Below are positions 22,455 to 58,887 of a stretch of DNA of 64,000 nt, piece by piece. Within the stretch, counting starts at the first letter, position 1. Each line of letters opens with the position of its first letter. The translations under genes were made by a program, and so were the position numbers. Below the pieces are notes generated by a model. That model did no database searches and was not told the DNA's origin. It saw nothing but the letters and a program-made list of their open reading frames with translations. Source of the DNA: Artemia franciscana (taxonomy: Eukaryota > Arthropoda > Branchiopoda > Anostraca > Artemiidae); contig NW_027062662.1 of the NCBI RefSeq assembly GCF_032884065.1, positions 922,552 through 986,551 of the forward strand, read 5' to 3'.

Positions 22455-25255
22455 TATATCATAGGCAGCATAATAGCACTGCCTAAGTAAAGAACAATGT
22501 TGGCACAATGTATTATTTATTCATTATTTTTTGGTCTTAGACAAGAGCACTTCATATTGGGGGAGCTGTTATAGAAACTTCAAAAAGGGCTCAACCAATT
22601 GTAAATTGAAATGGTTAGTGCTCTTTTAATAGTTGAAAGTGATTGAAGGGCAACTAACCCTCTTCCCACGCCAACCCTTTCCTCAAATACATCCAATAAA
22701 AATTTTTGGATAGCAATTTCGTTCAGCGTAGTTGAAAGGTCCAGATATTATGTCTTTGAGGACAACAGACCCCCCCCCCCCCAAGCCCTCGTGACGAAGG
22801 TTGTAAGTTATACCCCGGGGCATATAAGGTCTTTATAGAAAGTGTCGTCACAGATACTTCAAAAAGGGCTCATTCAATTGGAAATTGAGAGGGCTCGTGT
22901 TCCCTTTGATAGTCAAAAGTAATAAGAGGGTGAATGCCCCCCCCCCATACTCATTGTTTCTACAAACACTTTCGATCGAAAATTTTAATATATCCATTTT
23001 GTTCAATGAATTTAGAAAGACTGGAAATTATGTCTTTGAAGATGACGACCCCCCACAGCCCTCAGGACAAGGATTGTCAGTTATGCCCTTGGGCCATATG
23101 AGGTTTTTATAGAAAGCGTTGTTGTAAAAACTTCAAAAAGGGATCATTCGATTGGAAATTAAAGGACTAGTGCCTTTTATATTAGTCAATAGTGATCAGA
23201 GGGCAAATGCCCCCCACACCCATCATTTCCTGAAATACTTCCAATCCCAATCTTGAGATAGCCATTTTGTTCAACGTAGTTGAAAGTTTCGAAAATGAAG
23301 TCTTTGAGAATGACAAATCCCCCAGCCCTCAGGGCAAGGGCTGTAAGTCACGCCCTGGGTATATATGAGGTTTTTATAGAAAGTGTGGTCATATAAACTT
23401 CAGTGGGGGCTCACTGGATTGGTAATCAGAAGCTCTAGTGCCCTTTTTGAGTGTCAAAGTAATCAGAGGACACCCACCCACCCACACACACATATATGTT
23501 GTATTGTTCTGGAATACATCTAATAGAAATTTTGAGATACCCATTTTATTCAAAAGTCTAAATATCATATAACAAGGCTTTTGGGGTTGAAGCAAACTCC
23601 CAGAGCCCAGTGGCAAGGGTTGTAAGTTATTCCCTGGAGACATTAAAGGTTTTTATGTAAGGGATGGTTGTATAAGCTATAGGGGAGGCTTATTTAGTTG
23701 AAAACATTCTAGTTCCCTTTAAAGAGTCAAAAGTGATAAAGGGCAGCTAGTAGACTTCAGATAGGGCTCATTTGATTTGAAATCGGAAGGTGTGGTGCCC
23801 TTTTAAAGAGTCAAAAGTAATTTGAGAGCAACCAGCCCCCCTGCTCATCCTTCCCCAAAGATGTCCAATAAAAATTTAGAGATAGCAAATTTGTTCATTG
23901 TAGTCATAGGGTCTGGAAATTACGTCTTTGAGGAAGATACTCCCACTCCCACAGCTCTCAGATCAAAGGTTATAAGCTATGCCCTGGGGGCAAATCAGGT
24001 TCTCATAGAAAGGAAGGTTGTACATACTTCAAAGGGGACTCATTGGATTGTTAATCTAAATTTCTAGTGCCCTTTTTAAGAGTCAGTGTGATCTGGGGGA
24101 TGCTATCCTCCCCCCCCCCACCCTGTCAAAACTTCGTGTTTTCCTGAAATACATTGGATAAAAATTTTTGAGACAGTCATTTTATTCAAAATAGCTCAAA
24201 GATCATATAACAAGGCTTTCAGAGTTTATACAAATCACCAAATCCTGGAGGTGAAGATGTAATTTATGCTGTGGAGCATTTAAGGTTTTTATGGAAGAGA
24301 TGGTTGTTTAACTTTAGAAGAGACTAATTAGGTTGAAAATTGGAAGTTCTAGTTCCTTTTTAAGCATCAAAAGAGATGAAGGGCATTCACCCCCCCCCCC
24401 AACAACTCCTCTTTTCACCAAACACATCTAATTGAAATTGTGAGATAGCGATTTTGTTCAAAACAGTCCAAAGAATATACAATAATGCCTCTAGGATTGA
24501 CATAAACCCCTATCGCCCTGGGGATACAATTGTAAGTTATACCATGAGGGCATGTAAAGTTTTTATATAATGGGCAGTCATACACACTTCAGACAGGGCT
24601 CATTTGATTTCAAATTGGAAGTTATAGAGCCCTTCTTAAGAGTTAAAATGATTTGAGAGTAGCCAGCCCCCCCTCCACACTCATCATTTCCCTTAACATC
24701 TCCATTCAAAATTTAGAGATAACAGTTTTGTTCATTGTAGTATAAGGGTCCACAAATTATGTCTGAGGAAGACCAGCCTCCCACCCCTGCTGCTCTCAGC
24801 ACAAGGTTTGTAAGTTATGATCTGGGGGAATATAAGGTTCTTATAGAAAGGATGGTCATATGTACTTTGAAGGGTGGATTGGTAATCTGAAATTCTAGTA
24901 CTTTTAAGCCAGTGTGATCTGAGGGTAGGTTCCAAAAATACATTGAATAAAAAATTTTGAGAGTTGTTTTATTCAAAATAGTCCAAATATCATATAACAA
25001 GGCTTTTGGGGTTGATACAAATCACCAGAGACTGGGGGCAAGGGTTGCAAGTTATGGTGCAGGACAATTAAGGTTTTTATGGAAGGGATAGTTGTTTAAC
25101 TTTAGAAGAGACTAATTTGGCTAAAATTGGAAGTTCTAGTTCTTTTTAGCCGTCAAAAGTGATGAAGGGCATTTACCCCCCCCCCTTCCCCGAGAACCCC
25201 TCTTTTCACAAAACAAATCTAAATGAAATTATGAGATAGCCTTTTGGTCAACTGA
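22455..25255 (-). repeat. F2 tandem units in minus orientation with hairpin end
   Basis: The imperfect hairpin at 22464-22483 (GGCAGCATAATAGCACTGCC) and TAAGTAAAGAACAATG are followed by at least eight units in reverse. Each has GATAGCnATTTTGTTCAnnGTAGT, a C-run (the complement of the G-runs) and TTTTTATAGAAAG. It fills much of ERAL1 intron 1. Confidence 0.85.
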
Positions 25256-26265
25256 ACCTCTCACTCATGATGCCCCTGAAATTTTCTTTTGGTATTATAA
25301 GCCATCCTAAAAATATTACTGATATGCCTGTATCAGCAATCTGTATACTTACAGTATGTTTTGATGCAGTTCAAATTTCCTCTCAAGGGTTCCTCAGATA
25401 TTTTGCTCAATATCCTCAGCCTCAGTAGTGCTTGCTATGGAAGTATTAGTTTTAGTGATAGTAGTGGTAGTTCTTGTGGTAGCAGTAGATGCCAAAGTAG
25501 TTGTAGTAGTAATAGCATGCAATTACTGCCTTTTTGGTGAATTCCCTTATCATTTCCTAAAAATTCCAAATTAATATACTCAGTTATTCCTTTGTCACAC
25601 CCTTTTGACAACCCATATACACATAACATGTTATGGTTTAGTTCAACACACCCCTCAACATTCCCTGAAAGACTCATCTTAATGCCCTTCATATTTTGGT
25701 AAGGTAGCAGTCAAACATGTATACCTTTTCTCAATAACATATACTATATGTAAACAAGAAAAAATTGCATAACTTGCAGCCCTTGCCCTGAGGCCTAGGG
25801 GGGGGGGGGGGGGGGTTGATATCCACAAACACATTATTGCTATGCTTTTAAACAATGCTGAAAAAAATTGATGTCTCAAAACTTTGTTTGCATTCTTTGT
25901 TATGAAAATGATGGGTGTGGGAGAGGGTTGGACCTCTAAAACTTATACAACCATCCTACTATAAGAACCAAAAATACCCCAGAGGCATAACATACACCCC
26001 TCACCCTTAGGCTCTGGTGGTTTTCTATCAAATATCTATTGGATTCTTTTCAGGAAAACAAGATGGGTTTGTGTGTGTGTTTTTTTTATTTGGGGGGGGG
26101 GGGGAGCTCTACTCTGATCACTTTGACTCTTAAAAAGGCCACTAGAACTTCTGATTATCAATCCAATGGGTCCCTTCCAAAGCATATACAACCACCCTTT
26201 CAATAAGAACCTTATATTCCCCCAGAGCATAATTAATCTGGCAAGAGCTCTAATGATATTCAAGT
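25256..26265 (+). repeat. GTA module plus F2 units, plus orientation, head-to-head with 22455-25255
   Basis: A TTTGACAACCCATATACACA module with GTAGTGGTAGTTCTTGTGGT is followed by AACTTGCAGCCCTTGCCCTG, a G-run of about 17 and further F2 blocks. The order GTA module then F2 is the same as at 6430-9320. Confidence 0.75.
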
Positions 26266-26275
26266 TGTCATTCCT

Positions 26276-26475
26276 CTAAATGGAAGGCATATATAGAAGG
26301 TATGGCTGTGCTGTTTGACCCATGTGATTGTATGGATGAGTAGGGGTAAGGCCTTGTTCAAGTGCTGATCTATATTTATCAACTAATGTAGGAAAACAGT
26401 CTTCCTTTTCTCCTTCTGTCTTCTTTTTTTTATGTAGTTGTGCTGTCACATTGGTGATATCTCTTTTCATTATAA
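26276..26475 (-). repeat. R3 dispersed repeat, minus-orientation copy
   Basis: On the minus strand it reads ATGAAAAGAGATATCACCAATG, an A-run, AGACAGAAGGAGAAAAGGAAG, then ACCCCTACTCATCCATACAATC and CACATGGGTCAAACAGC. It matches copies at about 46150 and 49347. This copy lacks a long (TA)n neighbour. Confidence 0.65.
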
Positions 26476-27183
26476 TTCACCTTTAGTTAATTATGCACTT
26501 TTGTTTCTATTTACATATTTTCATTATATACTAGGCCTATTTGTATCTATGATTTTCTGTAGTATCAATTCTGAGAAAACAGGGAAAGTTAATAATTTCA
26601 TATAATACACAGGTGGTAAACAACATTGTTAAACTCATTTCATTGGAGCAAAAACATGATGTGGGCTACATGGTGCTCAAAATACACAAAATGTTCAAAC
26701 AATTTTTATTTTTAGGCTACTCTATCATCTAATAATAATTGTTTCTTATAAAATCATAAATGATTATTTTATAGCAATTAGCCTTTGGCTTTCTCCTGTG
26801 TTAAATAAAATAATGGTTCAAATTCATATACAATAACATTTTTTGATAAATAATTTAAAAACAAACTTCAGAATGCAAAGAAAAGAATTAGAGGAGTAAA
26901 GATTTAATATGCTTATTGATATCTTCTATTTAGGGAAAATTTTCACTCAATATGGCTTCATGTGGGAGCTATGCCTAATCTGTTTTAATATTCAGTTCAA
27001 TCATATAGACCTATTTTTCATTGCCCAAATATATGGATTATAGCCTATTCTTTCTTTCTCATGCTGCTAGGCTATGCCATGTATGTTTTTTATCTATCTA
27101 ATGTATAATCAGTATCCTTAGCCACCAGCTCAAACACAAACCATTTGACATTGAAGTCAACCACTACCAGGTTCTTATATTAC
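26476..27183. other. Start of ERAL1 intron 1, unique AT-rich sequence
   Basis: No repeat family or open frame of note. It includes the exon 1 donor at its right edge. Confidence 0.6.
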
Positions 27184-30870: not shown

Positions 30871-31230
30871 GTAAGTAGACTACAAGTTTAAGTCTATTAT
30901 TATCTTTAGTCCAATTTATAGTAGAATCAGTTTAATAGAGAAGTAAGAGTAAATTTCTAGTTTGAAACATAATTTAGTTAAGATGAAAATGAATACACCA
31001 CTTGATGCCCTTTCTTAGGCCTATGCTCTCTCATAATTAAAACATTCAGTAAAATTCTAGTTAATTGACTTTTTGCTATCTCAAAAAGGGTTTAGGTTAG
31101 GAAAATGAAACTTTCAGGGATGGGTCTACAGGCTAAAGTAGGCTATGTCCTGGGAAGCTATTTTAAAGTACCTACCTCCACTCCTTCTCCCTCTAGAGGG
31201 CTGTGAAATTTGCCTAGGGTAAGACAACTA

Positions 31231-31457
31231 GTACTGGGACACTTCAATGACACTGCCTATTCTGGGACAGAATCTTTGGTTGGATTGCAACATGTCCAAT
31301 ACTGGGACAAAAGACAACAGGTTTTTTGGAAGCAACCCAGAAAAATGTATAGATTGGGTGTCCAAGATTAAAGTCTTTTGTCCCAGTATTGGACATGTTG
31401 TAATCCAATCAAAGACTCTGTCCCAGAATAGGCAGAGTGATCAAAGTGTCCCAGTAC
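31231..31457. mobile_element. Short foldback MITE (227 bp)
   Basis: The ends GTACTGGGACACTT and AAGTGTCCCAGTAC are perfect inverted repeats. The arms continue over about 85 bp (CTATTCTGGGACAGA; CAACATGTCCAATACTGGGA). The spacer is about 55 bp. Confidence 0.75.
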
Positions 31458-31804
31458 TGGTCATCTTTACTACATGACAGGTCTATACCTATTGGAATTT
31501 TGCAAAACAACATTTTACCTTAATTTTCAGTTACTAGTTGCTTTTTCTCTGCCTTTAGTTCTGAAAATGCAATTCTTGTTATCTGAGTAGAATTTTGAGC
31601 CATATCAATGTTTTTTGTTTTTTTTTTTAGTTTAGGAATTAGCTTAAATCACAGCTTGAAGTGAAATAAACTTTTGATCCTATTGATTCACTCCTTGTGA
31701 TGACAGTTGCATACATGGTTGATTAGATTCTGGTGGAAGATTCTAGTGCATCCCAGTCAAATCTCCACAGTTTGTCACTCCACTCAGCATCCAGATGGTG
31801 TTTG

Positions 31805-32365
31805 CATACATCTGTTGATTCAGCAGAAACAAGTGTTCTCCTTGAGGTTGTTCCAAAGGTTCACAATCTGGTTTGGGAAGAAGTTGCATCTTGCTCCAGT
31901 CCTTGCATGAAGTTTGCAAATTTGTTTTGGGTGTCCTTGTGTTAAGTGGGTGGGGTCAATCTCCAGTAGCTCATTTTCTAGATTGGTAGAGAGGAGTTTG
32001 TGTGCATGGATCATATCCCCACGTTTCTGCCTGTAGACTAAAGAGGGGAGGTTGAGTTCCCTCAGCCATTCACTATTGGGCTTGTTTTCCATACCAGCAA
32101 TCAGCTTAGTGGCCCTTTGTTGGATTTGCTCAAGCACTACCTTGTCCTTTTTTAATCAAGGGGTGGCCAGGATGGTCCCCACCTCCAAACATGGTCTTAC
32201 TAGTCCTTTGTAGAGCTTAGTGATTACATGTCTACTTCTGCTGGTAATACTGTGTTTAATGATGCCTAGGGCTCTGCTAGTATTGGCTGAGATCTTCTGT
32301 GAGTATGAGCTGAATTTCAACTGGGAGTCTACAATAACTCCAAGGTCTCTCCTCCTGAACATTCT
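31805..32365 (-). pseudogene. CR1-type LINE ORF2 C-terminal fragment
   Basis: The minus strand reads RRRDLGVIVDSQLKFSSYSQ, then RALGIIKHSITSR, KLYKGLVRPCLEVG and, after one frame change near 32140, LEQIQQRATKLIAGMENKPN, LPSLVYRQKRGDMI and IVNLWNNLKENT. These are the hallmark blocks after the RT palm in CR1 elements (DLGVxVDxxLKF, LVRPxLEYG, VQRRATKL, LxxRRxRGDMI). Only the 3' end of the element is present, as usual for 5'-truncated LINEs. Confidence 0.85.
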
Positions 32366-32799
32366 CTAGTATGTGGCAACTCCCAGGGTTTTAGGTCATT
32401 GGGCATTGTTGCTTGAATGTATTTGCATATCTTTAAAATCTTATAAAATGGAATTGAGCAAAGTTATGAAGCTGAAAATAATATTGTTGTACTTCAATTA
32501 AGCAGAAGATCTATTTTGCAAGGTTTCAATTTTATAACACACATATTTTTAAAGGTCATCAAAGGTCAGGGCCCTCTAGAAGGAGAAGTAGTAGAGGTAG
32601 TTGCTTCAAAATACCTTCATGGGGACTTAGTCTGTAGATTCATCCCTGAAAGTTTCATTTTCCTAACCTAAACCCTTTCTGAGATAGCAAGAAGTCAATT
32701 AACTAGAATTTTACCAACAATTGTTTATGGGTCTGATTCTATTTAAGCTCTAATGGGGCCCCAGAAGGTAGATAAATTTTCAGTTTACAACATAATTTA

Positions 32800-33172
32800 A
32801 CAGGTGGAAAATACCACCTGTTGTTTTTTTTTATGTTCTTTACAAATATAATAAATGCTTCTACTGCAAATTAAAATTTAAGCACTTTTTGAGCTCTAAG
32901 AATGACAAAACTTCAATTAAAATATGAGTTATTGCTTGTTTTTGATAAAATAATACTATGGTTTCTCAGCACCATTTTTTCTTGGTCATTTTTGAAAGAA
33001 TACTGCTATATTTTCTCAGTGCTAAAATTGTTTATAATAAAGTTAGGCTGGGTTAGGTTAAAAAGTGCTTAAATTTGAATTTTTGTTGTTGGAGTGATTG
33101 TTATATTTGTAAAGGACATAGAACATGCATCAAGTGGTATGTTCACTTTATTGGTAAGTCAGTTATATGAAC
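32800..33172. mobile_element. Diverged relative of the 29957 MITE in the THAP intron
   Basis: Its right end (GCATCAAGTGGTATGTTCAC, TTTATTGGTAAGTCAGTTAT, ATGAAC) matches the 29957-30295 terminus. The left end is damaged (ACCACCTGTTG in place of ACCACTTGATG) but the inner arm TTCTTTACAAATATAATAA still pairs. Confidence 0.65.
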
Positions 33173-34099
33173 TGTTATAAATTTACCCAGTATTTTATTA
33201 TAACTTAATTTATTTAAGGTAATATAATCCAGAAGCATTGATTTATCAAAACTAAGTAAGAAAAAAAAAACTCAAAACAATTTCCCCATTTTTCTATCCA
33301 TCATGTCTCTGCTATCATATTTGATTTTTTTTTTCATAGGCCTATAGGTGAAACAGCAGTTTTAAGTATCCTAATAGAATAAGAAGAAAACAAGGCAGAT
33401 TTTATTTTTTATTTTTTTTGTTCAACCTAATCTTGATAATGTTTATGAATTACACAACTTTTATGAAATGGATTTGTAACAAAATAGTAATTTTGAAACA
33501 AATGCTGCAACCCATTATATATAAAAAATATAGAAAAATTATTTTTTTCAAAGGTACTAAAATTGCTTTTTTAGCTGTTTTTAAACAAAAGCATGCTAAA
33601 CCAGTATTAACATGTGTGTCTAGTTAGAACCCCATGTTTGGTCAGAACCTTTTTCAAAAGTTCTAAAAAACATTGGCTTGAAAAGAGGGGTATTAAGGAG
33701 GGTGCAACCTCCCAAATATAGAATAACTTCTTATATTTTTAAGTTTTAATGTTGCTCCTTACTTTAAGTAGAAATGATTTGTTTTATTATATTTAATCTG
33801 GAAGGTGTTACACATCTCTGATTTTTCTTTGGTAAAGATATATAATTCTAAACATTTGCAGTTGAGAGCTTTAAGCCTCTATGGTAGGGTTTTGTGATCA
33901 TTTCTTGTTAGGGAGGGGAAGATGCCTTAAAGAGTATATTTAAATGCCAAAATATCCTGACACATTTAGCCTTCAGGTATACAGAATTAGATCTAAGGAA
34001 TGGGGGTAAGGGTGTAGGTCAAAATTGATAACAAGAATGCCAAAGATCATGAGTAAGAGCAATGAAAAAGAAAGGGGTTCTCTAATAAGCAGATGAAAA

Positions 34100-34500
34100 T
34101 TTGCTACATGTTTTCCAGAGAAATTGCCTATGTTTTGTTCTGGGTACCTGGATGACTAATAGCATTTCAAACAGTAGGCTGTACAAAAAGTATGGTTCCA
34201 TCTTGCTTTCTATGGATATAGTGAGAGAAAGGTTGAGATGGCTAGGGCATGTTTTGTAAACAAAGGATAACAGATTGCTGATAATTGTCCTTTTTGGCCA
34301 ACTGCCTTGGGCTAAACAGAAAGCACATCATTTTCTGTTGGGGGGTAGGATGTCATAAAGAAAGAATTAAAGCAACTTCTTGGGAGGGTGTAAAGAGGAA
34401 GACTTTTAATAGATTAGGATGGATAAGGAGCATGCATAGTTGTGTTAGCCTCAGGCGGCTTTGTGCTGCTGTGAGTTGTTGTTAGTAGTAGTTGTAATAG
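34100..34500 (+). pseudogene. LINE 3' fragment (RLRWLGHVL-type C-terminus) with GTA tail
   Basis: Frames read RLYKKYGSILLSMDIVRERL, RWLGHVL, then KDNRLLIIVLFGQLPWAKQK and, in another frame, TSWEGVKRKTFNRLGWIRSM and HSCVSLRRLCAAVSC. The RRLRWLGHVxR, GRPRxxWxD and RxxWRxxVxxC pattern is a common LINE ORF2 C-terminus. A short GTAGTAGTTGTAATAGTAG tail follows immediately (about 34470-34503). Confidence 0.7.
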
Positions 34501-34689
34501 TAGAAAAAGAAAGCTTATGAGAGTTGAAAGATAATTGAATCTGTTAAGTACAAGTAAGAAGGTCCAAAAGTCTCATTAGTTTCTTTAAGATTAATGATTG
34601 TGTTGATTTTATCTAAAATTATTTGCTAACTTATACAGATTGTGTTTCATGTCAAGAGACTAAAAAGTCATATGTAAGGGAGTGGTGTA

Positions 34690-36690
34690 TTGCAATCCAC
34701 TGAATGAAATAAGTTATTAGCTACCAGTTTTAAGAATCATTAAACCAGTTAAATTGTTATATGTTGTGTAGTAGAGTAAATAAAACTTGTGTTCTCTATA
34801 CAGATTACAACATAAGTGGTTTCAGAAGTAGGATAGCTCTCTACTGAATCTGTTCAGTAGAGTTTGTAGTGAAGTAGAAGTTCTCTACTTCTCTCTGAAT
34901 TAGAGGTTTAATTCAGCTCTCTATACAGATTAAAACATACATGGTATCAGAAGTAGGATACTTAACTGAATAAAGTGAAACGTGGATTTTTTGCTCATTA
35001 AATTCAAGCATAAATTAAGGTAAAGAACCCAAAATTTTTCATAACACTTAGTGGTGCTGAAAAGACACTTTTTGAATTTTGTTGTTGTTATCTCCATTCA
35101 TATGTCTCTGAATTTTGGATAGTGTTAAACATTAGTAACAAAGAATTTGTGGTAACTTGGACTTTGCCTCAGTTTTGTGTTAAATTTTCCACTATCTATA
35201 AGCTGAAAATATTCAATTCACAGTCTGTTTGTGCTTCAGTTCTGATAGCTAGTTAAAATAATCCACAAAAAGAAACTTTTACTGTTATTACTATTTGTGA
35301 AAACTATCTCCTGTATTATACTGTTTTCCTCCTGCTAGGGGAGATAGTTGCTGGATTATTAGCTAGCTCTTCATTTATTGCATGTTCTTGGTGAACAAGG
35401 TGGGTCTCCCCCCCCCCCCTCCAGTAGTGCCAGGGTATCAAGTGTGCAAGTGTGTTTCATATAACATTTATGTGTGCTGTCATGTCACATTGCAGATGCT
35501 TCATAGTAAATTTGTACATACTTTAGTAGCACATTGCACATGCTTCATAGCACATAAAGGGGGTGCTATCATAGCACATTGTGAGTGCTTTATAGCGAAT
35601 TTAGTGTTTTTTTTATAGTACATTGCTGGTGCTTCATAGCACATTAGTGCATGCTTTATTAGCATGTTTGCAAGTGCTTCATAGCACACTTGGCTGTGCT
35701 TTCATAGCAAATTGCCAGTACTTCATAGCACATTTGTTCGTGCTTTTATGGCACATTGCGAGTGCTTCATAGCACAGTTGTGCATCCTTTCATAGCACAT
35801 TATGCATGCTTCATAGCACATTTGTTCATGCTTTTATGGCACATTGCGAGTGCTTCATAGCACAGTTGTGCATCCTTTCATAGCACATTATGCGTGCTTC
35901 ATAGCACATTTGTGTGTGATTTGATAGCATGTTGAGGGTGCTTCATAGCACATCTCTGAATGATTTTATAGCGCACCACTGTGCTTCCCAGCACTTTTGA
36001 AACGCCCGTATCTCACTGACAGCCAAATTTGCATCTGTATGAGCCCGAAGGAGCAGTGTAAGGGTAACATGTAAACAAGGTCACAGACACGGGAAGGACT
36101 TTACTTAGCTAAATACAAGGCCAAGGAAATGGATGAAGAACGCCTGATGGCCATGTTTCGTGCCTCCATGAAGGTGAGCTTGGAAACAATTCAGGCTGAA
36201 CTAGAGCAAGAGAGGGAGACTAGCCAACAGCAGATACAACAGCAGCTGGAATTGTGCATTTCAGAATGCAGCAGTTACAGCTGAGAATACTACTATCCAG
36301 AATGTCAAGTTTATGGATGGTATGGATATTGATGCATACCTCACAACCTTTGAGCAAACTGCACCCAATATAACTGGAGTTGTGCTACATGGGCAGTTAG
36401 ACTCTTGACCTTGCTGACAGGTAAAGCTGCAGAAGCTGCTGCAATTGTTCTGACAGCTGATAGCTCTGATTTCAACCATGTGAAAGAAGCTATTCTCAGA
36501 AGATTCCGAGTGACATCTGAAAACTAACACCAGTTATTCCATATGACACAGAAGGAGGCAGACCAGTCATTTACCAACTGTGGTAAGAAACTAGAGTAGC
36601 TGCTGACCAAATGGTTGGACGTTGCTGACTAGAGATTGATTGCAACCGCAGATGGGCTGAGAACAAAGATAGCCAATATTCTTAGAAAAC
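34690..36690 (+). mobile_element. LTR-retrotransposon fossil (leader and gag region), probably Ty3/Gypsy-like
   Basis: Parts in order: an LTR-end and primer-binding-site-like region (about 34740-34960, with a duplicated block), a leader with a minisatellite (35470-35990), and a gag-like region (about 36110-36690). The gag-like part has blocks resembling the matrix/capsid part of retrotransposon gag (AYLTTFE; LTGKAAEAA; VKEAILRRFRVTSEN). No pol region or downstream LTR is seen. It is broken, with several breaks, and looks old. Confidence 0.6.
35470..35990 (+). repeat. Minisatellite with GCTTCATAGCACAT units
   Basis: About 15 or more units of roughly 30-36 bp alternate TGCTTCATAGCACATTTGTG and CTTTTATAGCACATTGCGAG variants. 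One longer block is duplicated almost exactly (about 35728-35800 and 35820-35890). It lies inside the LTR fossil's leader. Confidence 0.85.
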
Positions 36691-40389: not shown

Positions 40390-40851
40390 GACTCAGGAAG
40401 CATCTTGGATCAACTTGACAGTCCTCCTGAAAATGAAGGAAAGAGGAAATACTCTGTGTTAAAGAAGTATCCTAGAAGAAAATCCAAGGTGATTTTCCTG
40501 CCCAAAGACAACTGTGAAGTAGATAATAAGCTGACTTCAGACGACTCTGAACCAGAAGAAACAGCTGCTAAAAGAGTCAAACCAGGATCATTGAAGAATG
40601 CAAGAGATAAAACTATTCCAAGGCCTTTTGAGATATATGTTTCAGAGCCAACATCAAAGACTAGGTATACAGCAGAGTGTATTACCTGTGAAAAATATAT
40701 GTTTGATAGTACACAAATTGTTATGCACATTAAGGATGAGCATATACAAGCACAAGGCAGTTTTCAGTGTCGTATTTGTATGGAAAAATTTGGCTTTCTG
40801 TTTGCATGCCAAAATCATTTGGCTATGCATCTTGAATCTCACTTCCCTTAA
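40390..40851 (+). CDS. THAP/C2H2 protein, last exon with two C2H2 zinc fingers
   Basis: Opens right after acceptor catttttag and reads DSGSILDQLDSPPENEGKRK in phase 0, matching the end of the THAP exon at 30870. It encodes about 153 residues to TAA at 40849-40851. An acidic/basic linker (KRKYSVLKKYPRRKSK, DDSEPEE) precedes two C2H2 fingers. The first is CITC, 12 residues, H, 4 residues, H; the second is CRIC, 12 residues, H, 3 residues, H. With the THAP exon this gives a protein of about 258 residues having an N-terminal THAP domain and C-terminal fingers, plausibly a sequence-specific nuclear factor. No ATG-initiated start fits this exon, which supports its being spliced. Additional small exons inside the 9.5-kb intron cannot be excluded. 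The intron holds the LTR fossil and three LINE fragments. Confidence 0.82.
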   Translation, partial: DSGSILDQLDSPPENEGKRKYSVLKKYPRRKSKVIFLPKDNCEVDNKLTSDDSEPEETAAKRVKPGSLKNARDKTIPRPFEIYVSEPTSKTRYTAECITCEKYMFDSTQIVMHIKDEHIQAQGSFQCRICMEKFGFLFACQNHLAMHLESHFP

Positions 40852-47264: not shown

Positions 47265-48100
47265 TCATTGACTTACTCACATGCTCGTTGTCGCATGTCT
47301 TTTACCCGCGTGTCTCTTTGCTTTTCATTTTTATTTTTCACACGCCGTTACTTTTCTTATAACCGAGTGTGTATTTGCTCTTTATTTTCATTTAAGACTC
47401 ACTCACATGTTCGGTGTCGCGTATTTTCTAACCATATGTTTCTTTGCTCTTCATTTTCATTTTTCACACGCTTACTTTCTCGGTGTTGCAAGTCTTCCAA
47501 CTAATTGTGTCTTCGCTCTTTATTTTCATTTTTGACATGCTCTAATTGTCGTTTTTGCATATCTTCTAAACGCCCTCGTGTTTACTCTTCATTTTCATTT
47601 TTACTTGCTCACATGCTCGGTATCGCATGTCTTCTAATCGGTTTCTTTGCTCTTCATTTTTATTTTTGACACGCCGCTGCTTTTCTTCTAACCAATTGTG
47701 CATTTGCTCTTAATTTTCATCTATGACTCATTCACCTGTTCGGTGTTGCGTGTCTTCTAACCGCGTGTGTCTTTGCTCTTCCTTTTCATTTTTGACACAC
47801 TCACTTGCTCTGTGTTGCATGTCTTCTAACCGTGCGTGTCTTCGCTCTTTATTTTCGTTTTTAACTCGCTCAAATTGTCGTTTTTGCATATCTTCTAACC
47901 ACCCTTGTCTTTGCTGTTCATTTTCATTTTTCACACCTTTTCGTATTTTGATCAACTCAGACAATTGAACAATGGCCTTTGCTTTAGATGGCAGTATTGG
48001 TGTTGTTGCAATCAATGGTCCGGGTTGTATATTTTCACATCGCATCACGTTTGATAGCAAAGGTATTGGTTCCAAAGAATCATCATTTGTAGTAACTGCA
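47265..48100 (-). pseudogene. Decaying gene fragment with about ten 23-residue charged repeats
   Basis: The minus strand is open from about 48100 to 47728. A non-repeat lead (LEPIPLLSNVMRCENIQPGP; AKAIVQLSELIKIRKG) is followed by repeats VKNENEQQRQGWLEDMQKRQ, VKNENKERRHARLEDMQHRA and VKNEKEEQRHTRLEDTQHRT. Further units of 66-72 bp continue to about 47265 but are interrupted by stops and frame changes (EEQRNRLEDMRYRACE is still readable). The consensus (K/R)NENEEQRHARLEDMQHRASE is a coiled-coil-like, strongly charged helix. I recall similar ExxEQRxARLExxRxR repeats at the N-terminus of Helitron-type and other Rep/PIF1 helicase proteins in animals, but no helicase follows here. It may be a host gene exon, a transposon fragment or only an old coding satellite. 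Confidence 0.55.
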
Positions 48101-48214
48101 ACGGCAAATTTTCATTTTTTGGACCCTCACACCAGCATTGCGTTGGATAAATAACTGACTAAAACTCTTATGTAATCTCTTATAAAAACTCTTATGCTAT
48201 AATATGTGAGAGGA

Positions 48215-50606: not shown

Positions 50607-51253
50607 CTAAAAATGTTCATATAATGTATTAATTAGCATTTAAAATGAATAACCCGGGACAAACATGCTGTATATGGATTCTAATGTTTCATAAGTAATT
50701 TCATCATTTTCATCACAGTTGATATAGCTATAAGAAAATTTGCGGGCTAATCTTTTAATATAAAAGGGAAATTAATTATTATAATAGTAGCTTATAATAA
50801 TATAATAGTAGGCTTGTGTCACCAGTCTTCATTCAGAGTTCATGGTGTGAGGACCTTTTTTGGATATAACCTATTACTAAAGGATTATAGTCTCTACCTG
50901 ACCTAAAGCTAATATTTAATTCAGTGACCAAGGGACTATAATTTGAATAAGCGGATTATTTTTCTTCTTGAGTGAAAATTCCCTCGGGAACTATGGATTT
51001 TCTTATTGATATTCTCATGATCAGTGACCTGTATAATATATATAATTAAGACTATCTGATATTTATAGACTTTCCGATATTTATTGGCAATTGGCAATTA
51101 ATTGGGTGGGAGGAGAAAAGTAAGCAGAAGAGGGGTGAGTGAGTTGTTTGCAAGAGCCGTGGTACCCGCCGGGCTTGCCCCTTAAATTGCGGGGACAAGG
51201 TAGACAGCCTCCAACACTTCCCTTACGATTGCTTCCCTTATCCCAGTTTCAAA
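50607..51253. other. Between the host exon and LINE ORF1; probable LINE 5' UTR in part
   Basis: AT-rich to about 50815, then less so (GTGTCACCAGTCTTCATTCA; GGTGTGAGGACC), which may be the LINE 5' end. The ORF1 frame is open upstream of its ATG back to 51143 and reads CKSRGTRRACPLNCGDKVDS, Cys-rich but unconvincing as a finger. Confidence 0.35.
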
Positions 51254-52305
51254 ATGAGTCCAAATGTACCGGTCAACACCAAACCAGGGGATCTCTTTCT
51301 AGCTAGGTTCGCAGGCTACCCATTATGGCCAGTTCGGATTCTGGAGTCTGTCCCCACTTCGACAGGGCCTAAAAAGCATCACGTTTTCTGCTATGGAAAA
51401 AACATGATCGCCAATTAGTTACTTCTGAGCAGCTTGTCAGTTACAAAGATAATGTAACGCAAGCTTTAGCCAAGAAAACGAGAGGAGTAGATGCTGCATT
51501 TGATGAATTACGTGATTATCCGGATGTTTATAAACAGTATCTGAAGGGTTCAAATACTGCTGCTGATTGTGCAGCAGAATTTCGAAATCTTGTTAATGCT
51601 ACCGAGCAGGATTTGCTCGCTACAAAGAAAAAATTATTAGAGACAATTGAAAAGAAAATAGCCGAAAAACTGAAATCGACCGGGTCAACTCCAACGGCTA
51701 GTACTGCCAAGTTTGCGACAGAGACCATGGTTTCAGAAATACACGATGCGATCATTATAGAATTTAGCCCAAAGTTTAACATCATTGAAAAACAGCTCAA
51801 AAGTTACTTGCATGCTATTGAAATCCTTAAGAACAGGGTAACTCAACTAGAGGCGAAAGTTGACGATTATGAGCAGGAAGCTAAGCTAGATTCTCTCTTA
51901 TTTAACGGTGTGAAACAGAACCCATCGCAAAATCTAAATCCAGCTATTAATCATATCATACGTGACCAAATGGGCCTGTCTAGTATCGCAAATTCCGATG
52001 TTGTGAGTGTTCACCGGTTCCGTCTGGGTTCTAGTAACTAACAAAGACCGGACAAGGTGGCTCCCGTGCTCGTGAAATTTCGTTCTAAGGACATTGCTAG
52101 CGCCGTTTTCAAAGCAAAGAAGAATCTTGCAAATAGTGGAATTTTTGTATCTGAAATTCTCACAGAGAAAAAGCGCGAGTTACTGAATGCTGCCAGAGAT
52201 AAATTTGGAAACCGATGTGTATTGTCAGATCAGGGGAGAGTTTTTGTGCGACAGTCTAGTGTTAGTCCCATTCAGCGTATTTGGGGTATCGATGATCTTC
52301 TGTAA
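51254..52305 (+). CDS. LINE ORF1 protein: PWWP domain, coiled coil, RNA-binding-like C-terminus (two breaks)
   Basis: The frame opens at ATG 51254 (MSPNVPVNTKPGDLFLARFA) with GYPLWPVRI, the core of a PWWP domain, and then HHVFCYG, its second strand. The frame shifts once near 51400. It continues KKHDRQLVTSEQLVSYKDN, then AFDELRDYPDVYKQYL, which fits the remaining strand and C-terminal helices of an HDGF/LEDGF-type PWWP. Residues roughly 120-220 are a charged coiled coil (LLATKKKLLETIEKKIAEKL; IEILKNRVTQLEAKVDDYEQ). The last third (PVLVKFRSKDIASAVFKAKK; LLNAARDKFGNRCVLSDQGR) resembles the C-terminal domain of L1-type ORF1 / baculovirus FP proteins. An in-frame TAA at 52039 precedes this part. 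PWWP domains bind methylated H3K36 nucleosomes and DNA, so a targeting role is my inference. Confidence 0.75.
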
Positions 52306-52447
52306 TATCAGTGATAGTGATAATCGTTTTCATTTCCGTTCATTTTTTTTTCTTTTTCTTGTTGGAGTTTACAATATTTTTTGTTTTTTCGTTATCTCTT
52401 TTCTGTATATTTCCTTACCGTCAAATGCGGTCTGTACTATATTATAA

Positions 52448-54982
52448 ATGGCTGTTCAAGTAAATAATGAAATGCAGCAGTCCCGTTTGGACTTGTTGCA
52501 AAATTTGTCGTTTCGTATTGAAGACGTTTTGTCGTTATCGGTAGCGAATGATTTTGTGGGTCATCCATTTAAGCCGCTGCGGAGTAGCAAATATATTCGG
52601 TTAAGTGATATTGAAATGCCTGGGAAATCTGAGTCTTTGACTGTGGCTCAGTGGAATTGTCATCTGAATTCTAACCACCATGAGGTCGCCCGTCTGCTAG
52701 GTCCTTATAAAAATAAGGTAGAAGTATTAGGGATTTGCGAGTCGTTCGTAACTCAAGACACTTTCCTCTCGTCACATTTTTTTCCAGGCTATAAACTTGT
52801 GTCAAAGTCAAGGAGTTCAATGAGAGGAAGAGGTTTGACTTTTCTGCTAGCAAATTCTTTGGATTACGTAATTCGAGATGATTTAACTCTCTGGAACGAA
52901 GGTAAGCTCGAAACTTTATCAATAGAAATAGAGTTAGAGAAAAATAGAAAGTTCATCATTTCTTTGGTTTACCGGCCGCCCAGCGCAAACCCAGATGAAT
53001 TTTTTAGAGAATTCGATGGATTTCTTCAAAGAATGTCAAGTACTAAACTCCAATGTATTTTTTTAGGCGATTTTAACTTCGATCTTTTAAATCTAGAAGG
53101 AGTAAACCATGATTTTTTTAACCTTATGCTTTCACATAACCTTTATCCCGCAGTTTCAATCCCAACTAGGATAACAGATCATTCGGCAACCCTGATTGAC
53201 AATATCTTCCTTTCTTCGGATGCAATTGTGGAGTGCTGTGCTGACGTTGTCTTACACCCTGGGTCTGACCATCTACCAGTATTTTGCACCATTAAAAGAT
53301 TTGGCTGTAAACATAAAACCAGTACTAAGCTTCAATTCAGAATGATGAAAGCTGAAAATCTCAGGAAATTTAAAAATGAAATCAGCACAGTATCATGGCA
53401 AGAAGTCACGGCGGAGAAAGAAGACCCCTCGACTGCTTTTGATAAATTTATGAGTATTTTGTCTCCCATCTATGATCAGTGTTGCCCATTAAAAACCGCA
53501 ACTAAGAAGAAAAACCAACCGCGGAAGCCATGGATTACGGAAGAGATACTGGAAATGATGAAGAAGAGAGACCAATTATTCTCAGATTATCTCAATTGTG
53601 AGAGTGATGACAGTTGGGAAGAGTACAGAAAGGCAAGAAATAGGGTGGATTCTGCACGACGAGCTACAATGAGGGAGTATTTCGGACAGAAATTAAAAAC
53701 GCAGAAAGGAGACATTAGAGGGACCTGGCTGACTATTAAAAGCGTTCTCGACAATGGTAAGGATTCAGCATCAACTGAACAGTTAGCCATAGGTGAAAGA
53801 ACTGTGAGTGGGAGGCAAGAAGTTAGTGAAGAGTTTTGTAACTTTTTTACTAAAATAGGATCGCAAATAAACCAAGAGGCAAAAGATCAAAGCGGACAGC
53901 TAGATACTGAGGAGTTTGACGATAACCGCGGTCTTCATCACTCATTTTACTTTACCGAATGTACTATGGATGACATTACCCAAGCAGTGAAATCGATCAA
54001 ATCTAATGCAGCTGGTGTTGATGGCCTAAACATTAAAGCATTTAAAGCAGTTGCTGCGTATCTCTTACCTGTGATATTATATCTAGTCAATTTATCTGTT
54101 CAAAAAGGTGTGTTTCCTGACGAACTAAAGCGGGCAAAAGTTATACCCCTCCATAAAGGAGGCGATAAAAGAGATATTTCCAACTGGAGACCAATATCTA
54201 TTCTACCGCTCTTCTCAAAAATTTATGAAAAAGTAGTGTATAAGAAAATATACGAGTACATGAATTCGCTTGGGTTTTTGTCAGATTCGCAGTTTGGTTT
54301 TAGAAAAGGTCATTCTACAGTGCATGCCGTTCATCACCTTTTAGATTGTGTAAATAGTCCGTTAGAAAATAATTTGATCCCTCTAACTATTTTTATTGAT
54401 TTGAAGAAGGCGTTTGACACTGTGGATTTTGAAGTTCTACTGAAAAGACTGCGAAACCTTGGAATTAAAGATACAGAATTAAGTTGGTTTCGGTCTTATC
54501 TGTGCGGAAGATCAATGAAGGTGGTGATGAGTGATATATCTAGCGCAGCTATGCCTATAAATTGTGGTGTTCCCCAAGGATCAGTCCTTGGCCCATTACT
54601 CTTCTTGGTATATGTGGATACTCTTCGATTTTACCTAAATGATTCAGTTTTAACCTCTTTCGCCGATGATACAGCTATCACAGTGTTTGCCCGGACTTCA
54701 AAAGAGGTTGTGCAAAAAGTGAACCAAGTCCTTAGTCGGCTTCATGTTTTTACAGCTCTAAGCTCCCTTGCAGTAAATCTAAGAAAAACGAATTTTATGG
54801 TGTTTAGTAGAACTGGTGTACCTGAACTTCTTGAAAATGTGCTTTATAACGGTGTTACCATAACACAGGTGTTTTTTTGTAAATATCTCGGATTTTATAT
54901 TGATTGTAATTTATCTTGGAAGAAGCATGGTGAAATAGTACGGTTGTTCTGTTTGGGCAAGCAATTTCGTGATGAATTATAA
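52448..54982 (+). CDS. LINE ORF2: APE endonuclease and reverse transcriptase
   Basis: An open frame of 844 codons. Residues about 60-285 are an apurinic/apyrimidinic-like endonuclease with AQWNCHL, GICESF, VYRPPS, LGDFNFDLL and the catalytic GSDHLPVF. A charged linker follows (about 300-480). The reverse transcriptase spans about 490-800 with AKVIPLHKGGDKRDISNWRP, SQFGFRKGHSTVHAV, IDLKKAFDTVDFEVLL, CGVPQGSVLGPLLFLVYVDT, the active site FADDT, and KYLGFYID. The product would nick target DNA and prime cDNA synthesis from element RNA. The first ATG is used; ORF1 ends 142 bp upstream. The frame is lost at RLFCLGKQFRDEL, where relatives run on for about 130 residues; those appear in another frame just downstream. 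Confidence 0.92.
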   Translation: MAVQVNNEMQQSRLDLLQNLSFRIEDVLSLSVANDFVGHPFKPLRSSKYIRLSDIEMPGKSESLTVAQWNCHLNSNHHEVARLLGPYKNKVEVLGICESFVTQDTFLSSHFFPGYKLVSKSRSSMRGRGLTFLLANSLDYVIRDDLTLWNEGKLETLSIEIELEKNRKFIISLVYRPPSANPDEFFREFDGFLQRMSSTKLQCIFLGDFNFDLLNLEGVNHDFFNLMLSHNLYPAVSIPTRITDHSATLIDNIFLSSDAIVECCADVVLHPGSDHLPVFCTIKRFGCKHKTSTKLQFRMMKAENLRKFKNEISTVSWQEVTAEKEDPSTAFDKFMSILSPIYDQCCPLKTATKKKNQPRKPWITEEILEMMKKRDQLFSDYLNCESDDSWEEYRKARNRVDSARRATMREYFGQKLKTQKGDIRGTWLTIKSVLDNGKDSASTEQLAIGERTVSGRQEVSEEFCNFFTKIGSQINQEAKDQSGQLDTEEFDDNRGLHHSFYFTECTMDDITQAVKSIKSNAAGVDGLNIKAFKAVAAYLLPVILYLVNLSVQKGVFPDELKRAKVIPLHKGGDKRDISNWRPISILPLFSKIYEKVVYKKIYEYMNSLGFLSDSQFGFRKGHSTVHAVHHLLDCVNSPLENNLIPLTIFIDLKKAFDTVDFEVLLKRLRNLGIKDTELSWFRSYLCGRSMKVVMSDISSAAMPINCGVPQGSVLGPLLFLVYVDTLRFYLNDSVLTSFADDTAITVFARTSKEVVQKVNQVLSRLHVFTALSSLAVNLRKTNFMVFSRTGVPELLENVLYNGVTITQVFFCKYLGFYIDCNLSWKKHGEIVRLFCLGKQFRDEL

Positions 54983-55391
54983 GCGAACTCAAATAATACA
55001 AAACAAAGCACTGCGTCTGATAGGAGAATTTCAAAACTGTCAGAATACTGTGGATTGTTTTAGAAAGAATGATATTTTGAACATAGACGCGCTACGTGAT
55101 TACCAGCTAGCGATTTTTGTTTTTTAAAGTGTAAATAAGGTAAGCCCTGAGTGTTTTTATGATTTTTTTAAAACTAACTCGTTTTATCACCCTTATTTTA
55201 CCCGGAATTCGGAGGATTTGACTCACGAGAGAAGAAATACAACGAGAGCAGGATTTGTTCTCAGAAACATAGGTGTCAGCGTCTGGAATGACCTTCCAGA
55301 ATCGGTCAGAGCGGCAGTAAGTCTGGAATCATTCAAAAGAATGGTTAAATTGCTTTTTTATGGCACTTGGTATCAACCAAGTGACATATAG
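54983..55391 (+). pseudogene. Displaced C-terminal end of LINE ORF2
   Basis: In a different frame from ORF2, the sequence reads IQNKALRLIGEFQNCQNTVD, then LNIDALRDYQLAIFVF, a stop, then KVSPECFYDFFKTNSFYHPY and GVSVWNDLPESVRAAVSLES, ending FKRMVKLLF and TAG at 55389-55391. This is the usual C-terminal tail of CR1/L2-group ORF2 proteins (RIQNRALRxI, WNxLPxxI, FKxxLKxxL). It shows that the ORF2 terminus was lost by a frame change close to 54945-54985 rather than by truncation. Confidence 0.75.
55364..55383 (+). repeat. Perfect 8-4-8 hairpin at the LINE/satellite boundary
   Basis: CACTTGGTATCAACCAAGTG is an 8-bp perfect stem with a 4-base loop. It overlaps the last codons of the LINE (GTWYQPSDI) and precedes the satellite. 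F1 and F2 end with hairpins of the same 8-4-8 geometry. Confidence 0.7.
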
Positions 55392-55403
55392 CAATCGCCA
55401 ATT

Positions 55404-57060
55404 CTGTCGGTCTGTCTGTCTGTCGGTCCCGGTTTTGCTACTTTAGGCACTTCCAGGTAAGCTAGGACGATGAAATTTGGTAAGCGTATCAGGGACCGGA
55501 CCAGATTAAATTAGAAATAGTATTTTTCCCGATTTGACCATCTGGGGGGGGGGGAGTGGGGGGCCGGTTAATTCGCAAAAAATATAAAAAATGAAGTATT
55601 TTTAACTTATGAGCAGGTAATTGGATCTTAATGAAATTTGATGTTTGGAATGATATTGTGTCTCAGAGCTCTTATTCTAAATCCCGACCGGATCTGATGA
55701 CATTGGGGGGAGTTGGAGGGGGGAAACCTAAAGTCCCGGTTTTGCTACTTTAGGCACTTCCAGGTAAGCTAGGACGATGAAATTTGGCAAGCGTATCAGG
55801 AACCGGACCAGATTAAATTAGAAATAGTCGTTTTCCCGATTTGACAATCTGGGGGGGAGTGGGGGGCCGGTTAATTCGGAAAAAAATAGAAAAAATGAAG
55901 TATTTTTAACTTATGAGCGGGTGATTGGATCTTAATGAAATTCGATGTTTGGAATGATATTGTGTCTCAGAGCTCTTATTTTAAATCCTGACTGGACCTG
56001 ATGACTTTGGGGGGAGTTGGAGGGGGGGAAACCTAAAATCTTGGAAAACACTTAGAGTGGAGGGATCGGGATGAAACTTGATGGGAAAATAAGCGCAAGT
56101 CCCAGATACATGATTGACATAATCGGAACTGATTCGCTCTCTTTGGGGTAGTTGGGGGGGGGGGGAGTAATTCCTAAAAATTAGAAAAAATGAGGTATTT
56201 TCAACTTACGAACGGGTGATCGGATCTCAATGAAATTTGATGTTTAGAAGGATATCGTGTCCTAGAGCTCTTATTTTAAATCCCTATCGGATCTGGTGAC
56301 GGGGGCGGGGAGTTGGGAGGGGGAAACCTAAAACTTGGAAAACACTTAGAGTGCTGGGATCGGGATGAAACTTGGTGGAAAAAATAAGCACAAGTCCTAG
56401 ATACATAATTGGCATAACTTCTCTGTTTTGGGGAGTTGGGGGGGGGGGGCTAGGGTTAATTCTAAAAAAATAGAAAAAATGAGGTATTTGTAACTTACGA
56501 AGGAGTGATCGGATCTCAATGAAATTTGGAAGGATATTGTGTCTCAGAGCTCTTATTTTAAATCACGACTTGATCTGGTGACATTGGGGGGAATTGAGGG
56601 GGGGCCTAAAATCTTGGAAAACGCTTAGAGTGGAGGGATCGGGATGAAACCTGGTGGGAAAAATAAGCACAAGTCCTAGATACGTGATTGACATAACCGC
56701 AACGGATCCGTTCTCTTTGGGGGAGTTGGGGAGGGTTAATTCTGCACAAATTAGAAAAATGAGGTATTTTTAACTTACGAAGGAGTGATCGGATCTTAAT
56801 GAAATTTGAAGTTTGGAAGTATATCGTGTCTCAGAGCTCTTATTTTTAATCCTGACTGGATCTGGTGACATTGGTAGGAATTGAGGGGGGACCTAAAATT
56901 TTAAAAACGCTTAGAGTGGAGGGATCGGGATGAAACTTGGTGGGAAAAATAATCACAAGTCCTAGATACGTGATTGACATAACCGGGACGGATCCGATCT
57001 CTTTGGGGGAGCGGGGGCGAGGGTTAATTCTGAAAGATCAGAAAAATGAGGGATTTTTAA
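55404..57060 (+). repeat. Satellite array of about 290-bp monomers next to the LINE 3' end
   Basis: Starts with a short (TCTG)n run, then CCCGGTTTTGCTACTTTAGG, followed by about five to six monomers. The motif CAGAGCTCTTATT recurs near 55665, 55966, 56261, 56547 and 56833, giving spacings of about 302, 295, 286 and 286. Each monomer looks like a dimer of related halves. One half has GGATCTnAATGAAATTTGATG and the other has GGATCGGGATGAAACTTGG, and each is followed by a cGGATCnG segment and a long G-run. Divergence is moderate, so the array is neither brand-new nor ancient. Confidence 0.8.
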
Positions 57061-58887
57061 CTTACGAGTTAAGAAGGAAACATGTTTGAGAAGGAAGCAT
57101 GATAAGAACACAATATGCATAACAATTGTAGCAAACATATTTTGCATGGAACTCCCTATATTTTACCCCCCCCCCTTAATGTGTAAATATACAGTCGAAA
57201 TTATATATTTCCCCTCTATTCTCCCAATGCGTCTCTCTTGTTTCATACCTTGTACTTATTAATTGCATTAACTGTTTAAAAGAAGAACCGGAAAACAAGA
57301 AATGGGTGACAGAATGCATTGGTTTTATATAATTTGGACTATATATTTGCTTTTTAGGGGAAGGTGGGTTGGCGGTAAAGTATAGGGGGGATCCATGCAA
57401 AAGGTGTTAGCTACAGCTATTGTGCGTATTATGAAACGTTTTCTTAACAAGTTTCCTTCTCTAGGCTTATACCCCTAAGCTGTAACTATTGCTGACAAAA
57501 TTGGAATTCCCTAAGAAGCAAAGTCATGTGGATGTAACTGTTCCAGTCATCTATGCAGTCAGCACAGTAAAGGGAAAATATTTTTACACTGTGACAGTCA
57601 TCAATGAGGATTTTAAATTCATGAACTTAGCTATTAACTTTTAATTAGTTCCAATGTCCTTTGGAACTAATTAAAAGGCCGCCTTTTCAAATGCGCAATT
57701 TAAATACGTATTTCCATGAATTTGATGAGCAGGACATTCGAAGAATCTATGTCAAAAGATAAGGATAAAAATTGTAACTGAAATGTATGAAAAAATTCCT
57801 AATTATAAAGAACGGTATCGATAATTCAAAAGGGCAAGGTAATCATTTTTGATATTATTCTAAAGCTCTTAGCTCTTGGCTCTTGGCTCTTCCGACCTCG
57901 TCACTAGTGCCATATGAGCTCTTAGCTCTTGTTTAAAAAGGAGAGAAGTGTGATAAGAGGGAAGGGTATTTATTTATTTAGTATTTAATATTAATTATTT
58001 TGTTTTTTTACCCCCCCCCTCCCAAGGATTTTTTTCTTTCTTCAAAATCATTTGAAGAAATGATTTGGCAGATTCATGGTGGTTAGAATTGCGGCCACAG
58101 TCAGGACTCTTTTGTCTTAAGAGTGGCCGTTAATGGTAAATTCTTTGTTTAATTTATATGTTTTGGATGAAAATAAAAAATATCTATCTATCTATCTAAA
58201 AAAGGGTGTTAGAAAAGGAACAGAGAGGAAAAAAATTACCAGCCAATATATGAAGTACGAAGGGTCCAGTTTTTATATTTTTTCGAATGATTTCTAAGCC
58301 TATTTTTGTTCTCACTGTAGAGTAGATGGTTTCCCCTGAATATTCGCCTTTTTATTTATAATTAAGTATAGCCACTGTGGTCTTGAAACAAGTGAAGATT
58401 TCGGATGCAAGAATCCCTAGCCCCGATGCCTTTTATGCATCACAAGCCTGTGTGTTTGAAACAAAAAGGGTATTTTTATTTCTAAAAGCAGTTAAGATGT
58501 TCCTAAAAGACCTTCTAGGGGTTAAAACAAGAGACTACTTTCATTAACTCTTTTTTTTATCTCCTCCATGAAATCTAACAAATACAGAATTGACAAGCTG
58601 TTACGGTTTGGCATTGCTCGAGAACTCTTTTAATGGCTTATAGTATGCTTCTAGTATCACATCAATTTTTTTATTACTTCCTATTACCATTTTACCAACC
58701 CCTCTCAATAGGTACACCTATCCCTCTCCCTATATTTTTCTGATCATTTCCGGCCCCTTCCTGTGCCAAATTAAGACGTTATAGTAGAGAAAATCAAATA
58801 TGATCGTATGGAATTGTTCACTGAAGACTCCCAAAATTTTATTGGTCTTGCAATGTTTGGAATAACTGAGACTCAACTCTTAGGGAA
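57061..58887. other. AT-rich region with one exon-like frame and a perfect hairpin
   Basis: An open plus-strand stretch at 57486-57644 reads LLTKLEFPKKQSHVDVTVPV, then GKYFYTVTVINEDFK and a stop; a stop precedes it and no good acceptor restores it. A perfect 14-bp-stem hairpin (TTAATTAGTTCCAA, 6-base loop, complement) lies at 57641-57674 overlapping that stop. GAGCTCTTAGCTCTT-type repeats occur near 57870-57930 and (TATC)n near 58180. Confidence 0.35.

Follow-up and report, generated by a model that had tools for sequence, protein, structure and literature searches.

What is a chromatin-reader domain doing at the front of a LINE? The question is raised by a non-LTR retrotransposon copy in a 64,000-nucleotide stretch of the Artemia franciscana genome (contig NW_027062662.1, positions 922,552 to 986,551; hereafter the window), whose first open reading frame appears to begin with a PWWP domain. 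The initial annotation of this DNA had recognized the motifs GYPLWPVRI, HHVFCYG, HDRQLV, YKDN and AFDELRDYPDV in the order of HDGF/LEDGF-type PWWP domains, with one frame change among them, followed by a coiled coil, an ORF1-like C terminus and an endonuclease/reverse transcriptase (APE/RT) ORF2, and it proposed a chromatin tether that directs insertion to transcribed genes. The case bears on how LINEs lacking a sequence-specific endonuclease select chromatin, and on the reason for the reader-like domains, such as the PHD finger, that occur in many ORF1s.

The element in the window and its parts are as follows.

50823 to 58201, plus strand: non-LTR retrotransposon copy of lineage D, delimited by blastn against its relative L017.
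51254 to 52305, plus strand: ORF1, with PWWP domain, linker, coiled coil, weakly L1-ORF1p-like region and FP-like C-terminal domain.
51254 to 51529, plus strand: PWWP domain at the N terminus of ORF1, from PF00855, the whole domain in relatives and an HDGF profile match.
51760 to 51885, plus strand: coiled coil of ORF1 (approximate limits), from profile matches to coiled-coil chains and the L1 ORF1p coiled coil.
52162 to 52299, plus strand: C-terminal domain resembling Baculo_FP_2nd (PF25298), from Pfam.
52448 to 54982, plus strand: ORF2, with apurinic-type endonuclease and reverse transcriptase, from Pfam; its 3′ part is damaged in this copy.
58170 to 58201, plus strand: 3′ end with a short tandem-repeat tail, judged by eye from the ends of several copies.

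All five motifs are present in the order of an HDGF/LEDGF-type domain. The 54 amino acids encoded by 51254-51418, which begin with the ORF1 start codon (ATG at 51254), by themselves match PF00855 at E=7e-5 and 23.7 bits (cut-off 25.6), and in the PDB they match the PWWPs of HRP2, LEDGF and HDGF, the best chains scoring 1e-5 to about 2e-4. The remaining half of the domain, from HDRQLV through YKDN to AFDELRDYPDV, lies in the frame of 51373-52041, so that one frame break falls inside the domain, at about 51397-51405, as the initial annotation had read it. Together with one in-frame stop at 52039-52041, this break makes up the damage to ORF1. At the other end of the protein, the match to PF25298 is below the cut-off in the window copy (E=0.015), just below it in the relative L020 (7e-5) and above it in L031 (3.8e-6). 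The Pfam families by which we recognized an APE-type LINE, PF14529/PF03372 with PF00078, are found in ORF2 of the window copy (2.7e-10, 4e-8 and 1.2e-32, respectively) and in the ORF2s of lineages A, B and C.

Relative to L017, the window copy is 97.3% identical over 4119 bases, 95.3% over 422 and 91.6% over 273 (blastn); it lacks about 108 bases near 54939 and contains about 2.57 kb at 55360-57928, before the 3′ end, that are absent from L017. Within this extra sequence, 55426-57067 consists of tandem repeats of 295-304 bp, followed by an inverted-repeat-rich stretch at about 57070-57460. The 3′ tail is built of ATCT units in the window copy and of TGTCTA units in relatives, without poly(A). 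This kind of tail, and the absence of an RNase H match in Pfam, are consistent with the Jockey superfamily (CR1/L2/Jockey). Elsewhere in the window are an open reading frame with STPR-type repeats (47728-48111, minus strand; PF21107 at E=2e-5, below the cut-off), a zinc-finger-like open frame in a CpG-poor stretch that is perhaps a host exon (40390-40851, plus strand; PF05605 at E=8e-5, below the cut-off) and a stretch that by eye resembles the C-terminal end of another LINE reverse transcriptase, for which Pfam is blank to E 0.01 (18655-19242, plus strand).

The window copy alone, broken and just below the Pfam cut-off, could have been taken for a chance match or for an isolated event that joined a piece of a host PWWP gene to a LINE. 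The 1.27 Gb genome was searched for PWWP domains, and the best 150 of 733 candidate places were scored; among these 150 are 55 places with open frames of 349-441 amino acids (counted by eye) and one host frame of 1167 amino acids. The eight best-scoring loci comprise six LINE ORF1s (L002, L003, L004, L006, L007 and L008) and two host-like loci (L001 and L005). Twenty places, all picked for long frames, were retrieved. Nineteen proved to be LINEs whose ORF1 starts in the PWWP, with ORF2 behind it, and the remaining one (L028) was recognized by reading as a host gene resembling ZMYND8/11.

Eight diverged LINE lineages in this genome, designated A, A2, B, C, D, E, F and G, have an ORF1 that opens with a PWWP domain. 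Lineage D is that of the window, A2 is related to A (L024, L002-L004 and L007) and E is a single decayed locus (L008). In lineages A to D, the longest alignments between copies (3.2-5.0 kb) show 96-99% identity and shorter ones go down to 92%, and the elements are therefore young; their 5′ starts are variable and their 3′ tails common, and one copy of each has both frames open (L012 in A, L013 in B, L021 in C and L017 in D).

A search with the window lineage gave 42 matches at 91-100% identity. Thirty-five of these, including the window copy and one extra upstream piece, begin at the first base of ORF1, which is also the start of the query, and the other seven have more internal starts, as 5′-truncated or split copies would; the PWWP is thus no addition to an ORF1 that elsewhere starts downstream. 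Among the eight lineage D copies that were read, only the window copy has a frame break in the PWWP. ORF1 lies in one frame in L017, L018, L020, L025, L026 and L027, and likewise in L019 up to a changed C terminus. A second partial lineage D 5′ part, including the PWWP, lies directly upstream of the longer copy in L026 (1117-1632).

Lineages F and G were reached without using the PWWP. The former was found by reverse transcriptase similarity (58% to that of the window), with two places taken from at least 150 matches, and the latter by its FP-like C-terminal domain, with two places taken from 25 matches. The PWWP begins ORF1 in all four loci (L029, L030, L031 and L032); the frame of L029 stops before the C terminus, that of L030 is broken behind the PWWP core, and L031 and L032 are open for 393-394 amino acids. 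On contig C17 (G000, 33243621-33264415), four ORF1s of lineage G type, judged only by their 394-amino-acid frame and PF25298 score, lie on one strand 6598-6599 bases apart, forming a head-to-tail LINE array.

Control stretches of 2 kb preceding the reverse transcriptases of three other LINE families (L050-L052, three of seven selected) contain no PWWP, and tblastn found no match between them and the PWWP ORF1s at E 1e-3; by reading, the first of these families has an ORF1 of CCHC type, the second has one of coiled-coil type and the third lacks a long ORF1. Thirty-six pattern matches in viral contigs include no relative. A search with the human HDGF PWWP (at least 150 matches) revealed no host HDGF exon that might have served as donor among the matches that could be placed, all of which belong to LINE copies or to the ZMYND-like host frame; such an exon may still lie among the short-frame matches, most of which are unplaced. 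The same genome gave 75 COX1-like matches on many contigs (L033, for example), more than 12 of them covering nearly the full family model, which indicates many mitochondrial insertions. The L033 copy, on contig C4, translates well with the invertebrate mitochondrial code, which argues against an echinoderm, tunicate or vertebrate source, and the place of COX1 in contig C6468 resembles the mitochondrial gene order of arthropods.

The family copies rule out a chance match or a host-gene fragment. With young copies under selection (see below) and the same domain order in each of eight lineages, an isolated fusion or accident is extremely improbable, and the HDGF/LEDGF-type PWWP at the start of ORF1 is a lasting trait shared across a diverse LINE clade.

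The identity of the domain is clearer in intact relatives than in the window copy. Taken at full length, the PWWP clears the Pfam threshold in the representatives examined from A, A2, B, C and D, with E-values of 8e-8 to 2e-9. Across the seven lineage representatives examined, PF00855 exceeds 25.6 bits in six (28.2 for G) and falls just short in F (23.9), so the supposition that the family lacks a match fails; the lineage E domain scored 43.2 bits, above the cut-off, in the genome search. A profile built from six ORF1s matches the human HDGF PWWP at 3e-11, and in the PDB it matches HDGF, HRP2/3, LEDGF and 6kco (LD23804p) at 3e-11 to 7e-9, with NSD2 next at 0.0017. The entry 6kco, which we take to be Drosophila NDF, falls between the HDGF/HRP/LEDGF matches at 2.7e-9. 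The closest solved PWWPs are those of HDGF, HRP and LEDGF, and the domain is of HDGF type.

Beyond the PWWP, the ORF1s match coiled coils, and a weak but co-linear match to L1 ORF1p extends along the protein (E=0.011 for the full match and 0.46 for its best stretch), while the C-terminal part matches PF25298 in lineages D and G. This suggests a PWWP joined to a putative type II ORF1 (coiled coil, RRM and C-terminal domain, CTD), in which the RRM assignment is weak. Transposase_22 was not found by Pfam in the lineage-representative ORF1s, nor does it stand among the best 25 of 42 families listed, and no PHD finger was found in the ORF1s of seven lineage representatives (Pfam to E 0.1 or 0.01). 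The succession of PWWP, coiled coil, ORF1-like C terminus and APE/RT ORF2 that the initial annotation had described holds for the window copy and its relatives alike.

The PWWP is under purifying selection. Between seven lineages its identity is 33-56%, with dN of 0.32-0.79 and dS of at least 1.2, saturated in 15 of 21 pairs. The corresponding identities are 32-66% for the RRM and CTD part and 24-64% for the coiled-coil part, the PWWP exceeding the latter in 18 of 21 pairs. Because its identities are near those of the RRM and CTD part, the PWWP is constrained about as strictly as the probable RNA-binding half.

The PWWP-bearing ORF1 has also been exchanged between ORF2 backbones. In L024, ORF1 (6807-7850, minus strand) is A-like, with 60% identity to A against 31% to C, whereas the downstream ORF2 is C-type, with 53-68% identity to C in its four pieces of at least 114 amino acids. 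The trees conflict accordingly. For groups named after the pairwise identities had been seen, the ORF1 tree unites A and A2 (support 100/99) and rejects C with A2 (p-AU 2e-30), whereas the endonuclease-region tree, in which the L024 row spans 298 amino acids against about 540-560 in the others, unites C and A2 (100/100) and rejects A with A2 (p-AU 2e-102). Among the five A2-type loci, a C-type ORF2 is clear in L003, L007 and L024, weak in L002 and not found in L004.

How such a domain might act depends in part on its methyl-lysine pocket. LEDGF forms its cage from M15, Y18, W21 and F44 and contacts DNA through residues including K14, K16, K39, K56 and K73-K75, and its F44A mutation abolished binding, though perhaps via misfolding (excerpts of PMC3663649); the HDGF2 cage consists of Y18, W21 and F44 (excerpts of PMC3119473). 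In 28 LINE loci, numbered onto HDGF2 by hand along alignments and found with a search pattern that itself required Trp21, position 15 is F in 27 and position 18 is Y or F in all. At position 44, 23 loci have Cys and five (L002, L004, L008, L009 and L016) an aromatic residue. By lineage, Cys44 occurs in 3/4 loci of A, 3/5 of A2, 3/3 of B, 3/4 of C, 7/7 of D, 2/2 of F, 2/2 of G and 0/1 of E, whose single locus has the canonical cage aromatics. The window copy lies outside the pattern by length and reads F, Y, W and C at positions 15, 18, 21 and 44. Most copies thus have three aromatics, but a different set from the canonical one at HDGF2 positions 18, 21 and 44. Basic DNA-contact residues are conserved only in part; at position 16, 12 loci have R, seven A, five Q, two K and two another residue.

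These residues bear on the idea of a PWWP that recognizes H3K36me3 and steers the element into the bodies of transcribed genes, as LEDGF does for lentiviruses. The domain is of the right type, the aromatics at 15 and 18 accompany Trp21, and five loci have an aromatic at 44. However, with Cys at that position in most copies, the preferred mark, if any, may not be H3K36me3. Such pocket variation counts against assuming that specificity, and it is the most interesting detail for a possible new preference.

A mosaic of CpG-poor and CpG-rich DNA is expected where gene bodies are methylated. In the window, the observed/expected (o/e) CpG ratio is near zero at 23001-27000 and 31001-36000 and near 1 in adjoining blocks, a strongly mosaic depletion. 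Steering by the PWWP to methylated gene bodies should leave the elements with CpG-poor flanks, CpG depletion being an indirect proxy for such bodies. The window copy itself sits in CpG-rich DNA beside a CpG-poor block. Around 19 copies, 36 one-kb flank windows (two of 38 were left out, one where the L020 contig stops and one where the window excerpt was too short) have a median o/e of 0.66 against 0.68 in 47 random windows from 16 places (one of 48, all N, was dropped; Mann-Whitney p=0.996), and 1/36 against 5/47 fall below 0.4 (Fisher p=0.23), in a small sample in which windows from one place are not independent, flanks contain repeats, element limits were set by hand and the survival of long frames may favour copies outside genes. 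The enrichment of insertions in gene bodies for which the initial annotation had proposed a test is therefore not seen as a shift to CpG-depleted flanks. Given the indirect proxy and the small sample, steering to gene bodies through H3K36me3 is possible but unsupported rather than refuted, and we consider it quite unlikely. The chromatin tether proposed in the initial annotation is plausible; its direction to H3K36-methylated genes gains no support from the pocket, with Cys44 in 23 of 28 loci, or from the flanks.

The altered cage and the lack of a visible flank preference also suit a plainer role, in which the PWWP would be a general nucleic-acid or RNP-assembly module, or a means of nuclear retention, with no choice of site; PWWPs do bind DNA (excerpts of PMC3663649 and PMC3119473). 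Against this, almost every locus retains aromatics at positions 15, 18 and 21, for which plain DNA binding offers no obvious reason, with the caveat that W21 is also part of the core (PMC3663649, in part). RNA binding, by analogy with L1 and a weak match to it, is probably covered by the C-terminal half. On balance such a module seems unlikely.

An ORF1 of this architecture, present in eight lineages with young open-frame copies in four, under purifying selection and exchanged between backbones, is in our judgement best explained, with a probability of roughly 0.55, as carrying a nucleosome tether by which ORF1p multimers would hold an APE-type LINE on chromatin. The clade would have acquired an HDGF/LEDGF-type PWWP at the N terminus of an ORF1 with coiled coil, RRM-like region and C-terminal domain, and then kept it. 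Multimers of ORF1p would coat the element RNA, and the several weak nucleosome-binding PWWPs of each particle would grip DNA and histone tail together. The RNP may thereby be kept on chromatin for target-primed reverse transcription, making it likelier that ORF2p nicks nearby DNA. The LEDGF PWWP recognizes H3K36-methylated nucleosomes by contacting tail and DNA jointly and binds the peptide alone very weakly (van Nuland 2013, PMC3663649, in part), which suits a multivalent particle.

More tentatively, the clade may have captured an HDGF-type PWWP and rebuilt its pocket around the conserved VFCYG motif, giving it a different preference, be it for another methyl mark or for avoiding H3K36me3 gene bodies, and the tether may have passed between ORF2 lineages as a cassette. 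If so, it would be a LINE-encoded targeting module. With a biochemically known reader domain in young LINEs of many copies, and with natural pocket variants and PWWP-free LINE families in the same genome, the proposed tether can be tested directly by insertion maps and domain binding assays.

Among the open-licence papers listed by literature searches, titles and opening abstract lines revealed no PWWP in a LINE ORF1; Repbase entries lie outside that scope, so an earlier record is possible. One Magnaporthe paper combining PWWP and LINE proved irrelevant in the parts consulted, as it deals with a PWWP gene into which Pot3 had inserted. Among known elements, the closest parallel is found in CR1/L2, with their PHD-finger ORF1. 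Excerpts of Metcalfe and Casane (2014, PMC4120745), who mapped 448 Jockey-superfamily ORF1s, attribute the earliest report of a PHD to Kapitonov and Jurka (2003), list PHD-bearing ORF1s as types IC, IIB, IIC, IIIA and IIIB plus a type V group, and state that the function of the PHD in LINEs had not, to the authors' knowledge, been studied; the word PWWP does not occur in the text. There, as here, a histone-reader-type module is joined to coiled coil, RRM or C-terminal parts (N-terminally in IIC), and ORF1 types have been exchanged between ORF2 lineages (PMC4120745, in part). The module of CR1/L2 is a PHD zinc finger, whereas that of the elements described here is a PWWP.

L1-type ORF1p (coiled coil, RRM and CTD; PDB 2yko, 2ykp and 6fia) shows a weak co-linear match over coiled coil and RRM; it has no PWWP, whereas here the C-terminal part matches Baculo_FP_2nd in two lineages. 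HDGF, LEDGF (PSIP1) and HRP2 provide the best PDB matches to the PWWP ORF1s and share the same C-terminal extension of the PWWP in alignment. They are host chromatin proteins, however, with F at position 44 and no known RNA-binding ORF1 tail. Chromoviruses, which are LTR elements, likewise place a reader domain inside a retroelement protein; theirs is a chromodomain on the integrase, whereas the elements described here carry a PWWP on the ORF1p of a LINE.
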